A DNA stretch of 26,107 nt from a virus. Positions within the stretch are counted from its first letter, which is position 1, and each line of letters starts with the position of its first letter. The notes beneath the pieces were generated by a model. The model worked only from the letters and a program-made list of their open reading frames with translations. It ran no database searches and was not told the origin of the DNA. Location: positions 1 through 26,107 of IMG/VR virus record IMGVR_UViG_3300038463_000106; one strand, 5' to 3'. Of this stretch, positions 311-4,627 are shown in pieces. The translations under genes and the position numbers were made by a program.

Positions 311-722
311 GTTTGGCGTAACAATGGGCTTCGTCCCAAAACGCCAACGATGAGATGATCCCTATGGGGACGCTCATTTAAAGACTCACCCTGTAGATCC
401 TGTCCTGAGGGACGGTATGACAGTGCTGGTGAGACTACCCGTATGCGATGCGGGGCTGAGACGCGCACCACTTGCGCGTACAATAGTCAGAAGCGTGTGA
501 CCGTTTTCTGACAAAGTCCGATTGGCCTCTTGTCACACATGAGGATAAGGACAAGGTGATAATGGCGAGTCACGTACGCCTTGCGCGCGCGCAAAACGCT
601 GCTGCTCAGCGAGTGACAAAAGGGTCTTTAGGCATTTTCGTCCCAAGTACAATACGAAATATCCAAGTCTTTTAAGCCACGAGAGAACCGATGCGCTGAA
701 CTTGAGCGTAAGTTTTCGTGGA
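311..722 (+). ncRNA. large structured noncoding RNA candidate between tRNA genes
   Basis: There is no convincing gene here, but helices are dense. Those I can draw are 313-319/341-347, 350-354/373-377 with 359-362/367-370, 385-390/428-433 with 391-394/420-423 and 400-405/410-415, 438-444/448-454, 461-467/473-479 (7 perfect pairs), 495-501/532-538 (7 perfect pairs), 569-573/613-617 enclosing 581-585/590-594 and 597-601/607-611, 636-641/654-659, and 677-682/716-721 with 685-688/712-715 and 692-697/705-710. AAAGA at 380-384 can also pair with TCTTT at 668-672 and close the whole domain. T-G wobbles (401-414, 442-450, 693-709) favour the + strand as the RNA. The size, complexity and position among phage tRNAs recall ROOL and GOLLD RNAs. 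The family assignment is inference; the folding is read from the sequence. Confidence 0.65.
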
Positions 723-2938: not shown

Positions 2939-4627
2939 ATGCCGCGTAAAAAAGTAGTGGAAGAGAAAGCACGACCAGCGTACTTAAACGCGGACGGCAC
3001 ACTTGAGATCTCAAAGATTTTCAAGCACCAAGAGAAGCAGACAGAACTGTTGCAGATACGAACACGCGACGGTTTGCCCTACATCATGACCCGAGCCCCA
3101 CAGTGCCTCAGCGTCGGAGGATTCCGATCAGGCAAGACGGTGGGGTGGTTGATGTATTTTGTCATGAACTATTCACTGGCTTATGACAACTGCGACATCC
3201 TCGTTCTACGAAGGACTTTCAAAGAATTAGAATCAGGAGCTATCAAGGATTTTTTAACGTTCTGTCCTCCTGAGCTGTACACGTACGACCAGACCAAGCA
3301 CGTCGCCACATTCATGAACGGTTCCCGCGTAGTTTTCGGCCATTGCCAAAACAACAAAATGCGAGACATCGAGCAATACTTAGGACAGGCCTACCCGGCC
3401 ATCCTGATTGATGAGTGCGGACAGTTTTCTCCAGACGCTTGGATGATGTTGTACGCTCGTAACATCGTAAACGCGGCCTGCAAGCCCAACACAGCGGCTC
3501 TTGCAAAAGGTTTCGAACATTTTCCAATCCCAACCATTGTTGGATGCACCAACCCTCTCGGCCCTTACTACGAATACTACAGAACAGTGTTCGTGCAGAA
3601 AGAACCTTGGGAAAAACCTGAGGGTGCTCGCCGCGACGACAACGGCGCGTGGTGGGTAATAGAAAACGGCGAGTTCATTAACATTTATGACCCGGCACTG
3701 TACGCATACCAACGTTCTACCGCGATGGACAACCCAGAGTTCCTTAAGAGGGACCCGGGATTCCTGACGCGTATGAACAGTATGCCCAAAGCGAAGCGTG
3801 ACAAAATGCTTTTGGGCTTGGATGGGACAGTAGAGGGACAGTATTTCGACTGCTTTGACCCGTGGGAACACGTTATCGACCTCAGAGAAGACCCAACAGC
3901 CATCATCTGGCAGCCTTGGCAACCTGTCTGGGGCTCACAAGACTGGGGAATGGGCCACGCCAACGCGGCATACCTCTTTACCAAAGCGCTTGTGAAGACA
4001 ATCGGCACAGATTATAGGCTGAAAACTGTTTGTTTCAAAGAAACAGTGACGCAAGGTGGCAAAACACACAAAGAATGGGCAGCACTGTTCAACAACATGT
4101 GCGTTTTGCCTACGAAGCCCACAGCGCAACGAGTCATTCCCAAAGCTATTTTCTTTTCGCACGAAAAATTCAGCAAACAAGTAACCGCACACACGCCTGC
4201 CGACGAGTATTCGAGAGAATTACGTACGTACGGCTTGCCCTCGGTGACCAGAGCAACGCAAGATCGCATAGGCTCGGCTTCGATGATGTACAACGCGTTC
4301 AAAAATGGCGAACTTGTCATTTTGGACAACTGCAAAGACATCATCAACGCTATCCCGTCGCTAATGCGCGACCCAGATCAGATGGACGACGTACTAAAAG
4401 TCAACACACGAGGTGATGACTGCTACGACGCGTTCAGGTACGGCCTGTATGGCATGTACGGTCCTAGAAAAAAGCCAGAAGAAATCTCAATTGAGGAACA
4501 CGCTAAGACTTTGGACCCGATGGCGGCTCATTTCTACCGAATGAAGATGTTGCACAATCGAGTAAACGCAAATGCTCCATTCGTGCAGAAAGAACAGCCG
4601 GTGTGGCAAGGAAAATGTGGACTGTAA
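2939..4627 (+). CDS. terL: terminase large subunit (packaging ATPase/nuclease)
   Basis: The 562-aa protein is a full-length packaging motor. Walker A is GGFRSGKT (residues 60-67). Walker B is AILIDE (154-159) with D158-E159. A coupling-motif-like GCTNPLG lies near 202-208. The C-terminal RNase H-type nuclease shows GSQDWG with D335, and an acidic DDCYDAF motif at 493-499. It pumps DNA into the prohead through the portal and cuts concatemers. It forms an operon with the small subunit, 13 bases upstream. TerL is the best marker here for placing the phage by phylogeny. Confidence 0.96.
   Translation: MPRKKVVEEKARPAYLNADGTLEISKIFKHQEKQTELLQIRTRDGLPYIMTRAPQCLSVGGFRSGKTVGWLMYFVMNYSLAYDNCDILVLRRTFKELESGAIKDFLTFCPPELYTYDQTKHVATFMNGSRVVFGHCQNNKMRDIEQYLGQAYPAILIDECGQFSPDAWMMLYARNIVNAACKPNTAALAKGFEHFPIPTIVGCTNPLGPYYEYYRTVFVQKEPWEKPEGARRDDNGAWWVIENGEFINIYDPALYAYQRSTAMDNPEFLKRDPGFLTRMNSMPKAKRDKMLLGLDGTVEGQYFDCFDPWEHVIDLREDPTAIIWQPWQPVWGSQDWGMGHANAAYLFTKALVKTIGTDYRLKTVCFKETVTQGGKTHKEWAALFNNMCVLPTKPTAQRVIPKAIFFSHEKFSKQVTAHTPADEYSRELRTYGLPSVTRATQDRIGSASMMYNAFKNGELVILDNCKDIINAIPSLMRDPDQMDDVLKVNTRGDDCYDAFRYGLYGMYGPRKKPEEISIEEHAKTLDPMAAHFYRMKMLHNRVNANAPFVQKEQPVWQGKCGL

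Follow-up and report, generated by a model that had tools for sequence, protein, structure and literature searches.

The tRNA cluster of phage T4 encodes the stable small RNAs C and D, to which the RNA described here is likened as a probably stable RNA within a phage tRNA cluster. GOLLD and ROOL, which lie in a comparable context, both form homo-oligomers (PMC12286853). GOLLD (RF02032) resembles our RNA in being phage-encoded near or inside tRNA islands and in combining a variable 5′ region, a conserved 3′ region, and large peripheral insertions (PMC12286853), but many of its members exceed 800 nt, versus about 150 to 500 nt here. ROOL (RF03087) likewise shares the phage, tRNA-island context and multiple pseudoknots (PMC12286853), whereas its model spans 574 positions, has a different architecture, and gave no match. 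Membership in one of these two classes had been suggested from the sequence alone; neither model, however, matched any of nine records at E ≤ 10 (GOLLD, 0/9; ROOL, 0/9, with the ROOL control genomes also silent and its sensitivity to diverged members unproven). Because the context is like that of GOLLD and ROOL but neither model matches, we treat the RNA as one of a family of folded RNAs not catalogued before, new within the tRNA-island-linked ornate phage RNAs.

The sequence under study was IMG/VR virus record IMGVR_UViG_3300038463_000106 (26,107 bp; hereafter the window, meaning the whole stretch of DNA analyzed), whose left end is a + strand tRNA array. On the 3′ side of the array lie a metallopeptidase-like gene (its SprT-type label comes from the HExxH motif alone), an HNH endonuclease, a probable small terminase, and the large terminase (2939–4627). 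The array and the RNA within it are laid out as follows:

1–62, + strand, partial tRNA, member of the array
72–148, + strand, tRNA-Met, member of the array
232–304, + strand, tRNA-Trp (CCA anticodon) upstream of the RNA, 41.9 bits with the Rfam tRNA model
311–665, + strand, structured noncoding RNA, the complete unit, P1 through the 3′ CCA, ~355 nt, with homologous units in relatives
735–810, + strand, tRNA-Ala downstream of the RNA, from tRNA searches
816–890, + strand, tRNA-Asn, member of the array
949–974, + strand, intrinsic terminator closing the array, with similar ones at the matching site in L008, L009, and L032

The tRNA-Trp was detected by Rfam and missed by ARAGORN. The tRNAs at 232–304 and 735–810 bear out the noncoding stretch that the sequence-only reading had placed between tRNA-Trp and tRNA-Ala. 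As for the extent it gave, 311–722, the part from 311 to 665 stood, but the CCA at 663–665 makes a better 3′ end, and 677–721 is a separate small element.

Judged by sequence comparison, the reading holds up: 311–665 is a genuine + strand noncoding RNA whose structure is conserved. Relatives were TerL-related phage contigs in IMG/VR, in which the unit occupies the matching site, with tRNA-Thr, -Met, or -Trp on its 5′ side and usually tRNA-Ala on its 3′ side. Homologues, first picked by eye and then confirmed with covariance models built from few sequences, were found in L004, L005, L009 (with L026/L027), L011/L012, L015, L020, and L024/L031/L035; with L032, which model R2 added, there are about nine lineages, eight of them in tRNA arrays and one (L032) without tRNAs. 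Beyond its training set, model R2 matched at the expected site in L020 (E = 8.7e-11), L009/L026/L027 (1.2e-3), L015 (0.011), and L032 (1.7e-7), the last being the ninth lineage, which came from a whole-record R2 search. Each record held one strong match, oriented with the array; a second, weak R2 match in G001 (E = 0.05) is probably due to chance, and weak R2 matches in two other records (E of about 0.01 to 0.02) were judged to be chance. The L032 RNA (about L032:4432–4582) is flanked by an ORF and the terminator; neither ARAGORN nor Rfam detected a tRNA near it, and TTCACCA, perhaps a tRNA remnant, lies on its 3′ side; this lineage appears to have kept the RNA after tRNA loss. The RNA is missing from several related phages, for instance L095, in which a protein gene appears to occupy the gap. 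Two cases are unconfirmed members: L006 shares no more than several hairpins and the junction closed by P1, and a 450-nt stretch at 640–1090 of L108/L109, between tRNA-Asn and tRNA-Gln, has a similar terminal pseudoknot (GGGA...UUCCCAAG) and resembles the RNA by eye but is not detected by R2.

Because of indels, a whole-RNA MAFFT alignment was unusable in the 3′ half, and models R1 and R2 were used instead. Hand alignment underlies the tables for P1, P4, and S1 as well as the triplex register, and the covariation comes from about nine lineages only, which permits no proper ancestry correction. The 5′ domain comprises the following elements:

313–347, + strand, P1 hairpin domain, helix 313–318/342–347 with inner hairpin 325–328/335–338
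349–378, + strand, window-specific hairpin after P1, from the fold, with none seen in homologues
380–384, + strand, AAAGA motif before P2, invariant in six lineages, complementary to UCUUU at 625–629
385–433, + strand, P2 arm, with P2 at 385–390/428–433, P2b at 391–394/420–423, and the bulge UGMU at 424–427
438–454, + strand, P3 hairpin, 438–441/451–454, with a conserved 9-nt loop of the AAUNCRAUG type

P1 begins just 3′ of the upstream tRNA CCA and a spacer; it is paired in 8/8 rows, among them the unconfirmed L006, with double changes at 4/6 pairs (strands hand-picked), and, as read from the sequences, it closes a three-way junction in L004, L006, L020, and L024. P2 (CUCACC/GGUGAG) is nearly invariant, with all cells paired, and P2b is also paired in all cells, with double changes at three of its four pairs, while P3 joins a variable stem, double-changed at 4/4 pairs, to a constant loop. 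Single-sequence folding did not favor P2 in L004, L005, and L024. In model alignment A9, 97.5% of the cells of the 5′ domain were paired, versus 79.4% after shuffling and 23 to 49% in slid registers, and half of the pairs (7/14) change on both sides. The covariation score was reached by 0/500 shuffles and the number of double-changed pairs by 1/500.

A possible long-range closing helix, 380–384/668–672, had been read from the window, and it fails in the homologues, which lack the 3′ partner GTCTT at that place; what they conserve as a complement to AAAGA is UCUUU (625–629) instead. Pairing of AAAGA with this UCUUU fits six lineages, one of them with a mismatch. It is rated weak, since one of its pairs is broken in L011 and it cannot apply to L009, L015, and L032, from which the AAAGACUCACC motif is missing. 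Moreover, pairing of AAAGA with loop 1 would compete with the triplex described below.

Modular changes were also observed in this part of the RNA. Between P1 and AAAGA, L011 (3045–3109) has an extra hairpin of ~58 nt; L012, although nearly identical, is without it, which makes this a natural insertion or deletion within the RNA. L005 (1230–1365) has a second, tandem copy of the GACUCAC...GGUGAGACU arm and the hairpin after it, so that its P2/P3 domain is duplicated.

The middle region is variable in size, with insertions of varied length after P3 and almost none in L020:

461–479, + strand, P3b hairpin, 461–467/473–479, from the fold
486–552, + strand, two hairpins, 486–492/506–512 and 516–519/549–552 with 526–529/541–544
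569–573 with 613–617, + strand, P4, GUCAC with GUGAC, from the hand table

At the P3b site, hairpins of different sequence occur in L004, L005, and L024, and none in L020. The loops of the two following hairpins are complementary over 7 bp in the window (495–501 with 532–538; 0.0006 for shuffled loops), and the equivalent loops of L011 over 6 bp (0.007); the stems of the two are unrelated, and the loop complementarity is kept. We regard this region as a candidate kissing-loop pair. P4 is paired in all nine lineages, and its variants (GUC/GAC, GCU/AGC, UUG/CAA, and AUG/CAU) give double changes at 3/3 pairs in the hand table. Unconstrained single-sequence folding did not favor P4 in the window, L004, L005, or L024.

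The RNA ends in a pseudoknot:

622–665, + strand, H-type pseudoknot, 3′ end of the RNA
622–624/642–644, + strand, S1 of the pseudoknot, GGG/CCC
625–630, + strand, loop 1 of the pseudoknot, UCUUUA
631–632/663–664 and 636–641/654–659, + strand, S2 of the pseudoknot
645–653, + strand, loop 3 of the pseudoknot, AAGUACAAU
663–665, + strand, 3′ CCA, end of the pseudoknot

Double changes were found at 7 of the 11 pairs of S2, and 88% of the cells in the S2 region were paired, versus 72.9% after shuffling and 30 to 63% in slid registers. S1 varies in a single lineage, L032, which has a compensatory AGG:CCU inside GAGG:CCUC (hand-aligned). In six full-type lineages, the CCA end is followed by an A/U-rich trailer as also found after tRNAs, and L009 and L015 have CCG instead of CCA after S2. 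A 10-nt direct repeat, TTCGTCCCAA, pointed out from the sequence alone, is indeed present at 330–339 and 637–646, but it is near chance (6% of shuffles) and uninformative; its 3′ copy alone is conserved, as part of the pseudoknot.

Loop 1 lies parallel to the purine strand of S2, with a GAAA strand facing a CUUU loop; in L011 the purine strand is AAAG and loop 1 is UUUC, i.e., both are altered in step. Across nine lineages aligned by hand, 32/36 positions fit parallel U·A-U or C·G-C triples, versus 7 to 15 in other parallel registers (permutation value, 0.004, for a hand alignment with ancestry uncorrected). These data are suggestive of a parallel pyrimidine-motif triple helix between loop 1 UCUUU and the S2 purine strand, so graded because the alignment was made by hand and ancestry was uncorrected, and the triplex covariation rests chiefly on L011. 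Plant-virus tRNA-like structures also have a 3′-terminal pseudoknot, in which a short stem leads to a final CCA, but, unlike them, our RNA has no tRNA-like arms. In the telomerase RNA pseudoknot, a pyrimidine-rich loop 1 runs parallel to the stem 2 purine strand, and loop 3 is A-rich. The guanidine-III riboswitch is likewise an H-type pseudoknot with a triple helix (PMC5696562). Our pseudoknot, with its predicted triple helix, is similar to both, but it closes an independent phage RNA at its 3′ end rather than lying upstream of a gene and has no Rfam match.

Consistent with the earlier claim that the structure belongs to the + strand only, the + strand of 305–734 gives a better fold than its shuffled versions (z = −2.46, 0/100), with no clear folding excess over shuffles on the − strand (z = −0.93, 15/100). 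For the homology-defined unit 311–666, the advantage over shuffled sequences is only modest (z = −1.84, 4/100). At the level of sequence analysis, the strong evidence for the RNA is comparative rather than the single-sequence fold. The Rfam model searches proposed beforehand were negative for GOLLD, ROOL, and other families: the families of Rfam 15 gave zero matches over the RNA up to E = 10 (cmscan of 140–1020), permissive scans of the window region, L020, and L032 returned tRNAs or chance matches to unrelated families outside the RNA, and the tRNA/tmRNA models were unmatched over 311–665. In addition, phage and plasmid collections searched by blastn with the cores of the window RNA and its homologues gave no match, and blastn of the homologues against the window found nothing inside the RNA unit and one short match, 673–698, outside it. 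Pattern scans of viral contigs with the 5′ and 3′ motifs recovered TerL relatives and chance matches and nothing else, and scans of genome contigs for the RNA gave no match.

Further noncoding elements occur in and around the arrays. Window positions 677–721, before tRNA-Ala, form an outer stem (CCACGA/UCGUGG) around conserved AACCGAUG and UAAGUUU, with counterparts at about 500–545 of L096 (stem CCUCAG/CUGAGG) and at 2704–2729 of L015, and are probably a second structured RNA. Inter-tRNA elements with a long closing stem lie at 149–231 of the window (CUUUGUGAGA/UCUCACAAAG) and 3435–3519 of L024 (UAGCUCGC/GCGAGCUA), both rejected by tRNA models. A conserved noncoding element, GUCAGUGCRUUGG...CAACUGACCCRACGC, follows the array in L020 (4480–4560), L032 (4600–4675), L015 (3030–3100), and L037 (about 235–310), and its strands GUCAG/CUGAC and GCGUUGG/CCRACGC stand in pseudoknot order.

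We infer a stable trans-acting phage RNA that would be freed by tRNA-processing enzymes and, going by its anatomy only, would carry a protective 3′ pseudoknot and a scaffold (probability of about 0.6). The RNA would be co-transcribed with the tRNA array to the terminator at 949–974; a cut after the upstream tRNA CCA would leave its 5′ end beside P1, and RNase P acting at tRNA-Ala, together with trimming, would produce a 3′ end at or near the CCA. The 3′ H-type pseudoknot, most likely with a triplex in which loop 1 lies along the S2 major groove, would shield this end, and the P2/P3 arms, with the kissing-loop pair in larger members, may be the scaffold for a partner from the phage or the host. 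A more specific proposal, that the RNA is a new class in which a telomerase-like triplex pseudoknot closing on CCA protects the released RNA and kissing loops provide intra- or intermolecular assembly, is tentative and falls well short of even odds.

A cis-acting element of the tRNA precursor, whose fold merely spaces, stabilizes, or processes the polycistronic transcript, would suit an RNA that is nearly always found in the array, directly upstream of tRNA-Ala, and whose flanks resemble tRNA flanks. However, L032 keeps the RNA without detectable tRNAs, and it is therefore not merely a tRNA spacer; the modular build, the conserved 3′ pseudoknot, and the peripheral insertions would be needless for a spacer, and most spacers between tRNAs here are only a few to tens of nucleotides long. 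We thus consider this reading unlikely, and a cis-regulatory role is also unlikely because tRNAs or a terminator, not an ORF, follow. The pseudoknotted CCA end, with its tRNA-like trailer, could instead make the RNA a tRNA-like decoy that engages tRNA-handling enzymes or tRNA-targeting host defenses, and phage tRNAs have been proposed as a counter to tRNA-cleaving defenses (PMC10264068); yet an anticodon-arm mimic is absent, no tRNA covariance model matches over the RNA, and the CCA itself is replaced in L009 and L015, which makes a decoy less likely still.

The shared phage, tRNA-island context, the GOLLD-like division into a variable 5′ and a conserved 3′ region, the candidate kissing loop, and the known homo-oligomers (PMC12286853) would all accord with a homo-oligomeric RNA cage built by a GOLLD or ROOL that has diverged strongly, but the failure of RF02032 and RF03087 to match (the ROOL control genomes being without signal) and a length half or less of that of many GOLLD RNAs render this quite improbable. 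Finally, single homologues contain open frames of up to 113 codons, as a small protein-coding region or decayed gene might, but stop codons interrupt all six frames of the window stretch, no reading frame is conserved across the homologues, length varies freely, and substitutions preserve base pairs. A coding role is excluded because of the stops, free indels, and covariation, and its likelihood is close to nil. The helices covary across about nine lineages and no frame is conserved, which sustains the sequence-only reading of an ornate noncoding RNA in a phage tRNA array, possibly of a new class.

GOLLD and ROOL, large structured RNAs beside phage tRNAs, are themselves without known function. 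A much shorter, modular family in this setting, whose minimal form is ~150 nt long and one of whose members outlived its tRNAs, would offer a tractable system, and the predicted triplex pseudoknot, precise in structure and placed at a defined 3′ end, would lend itself to testing.
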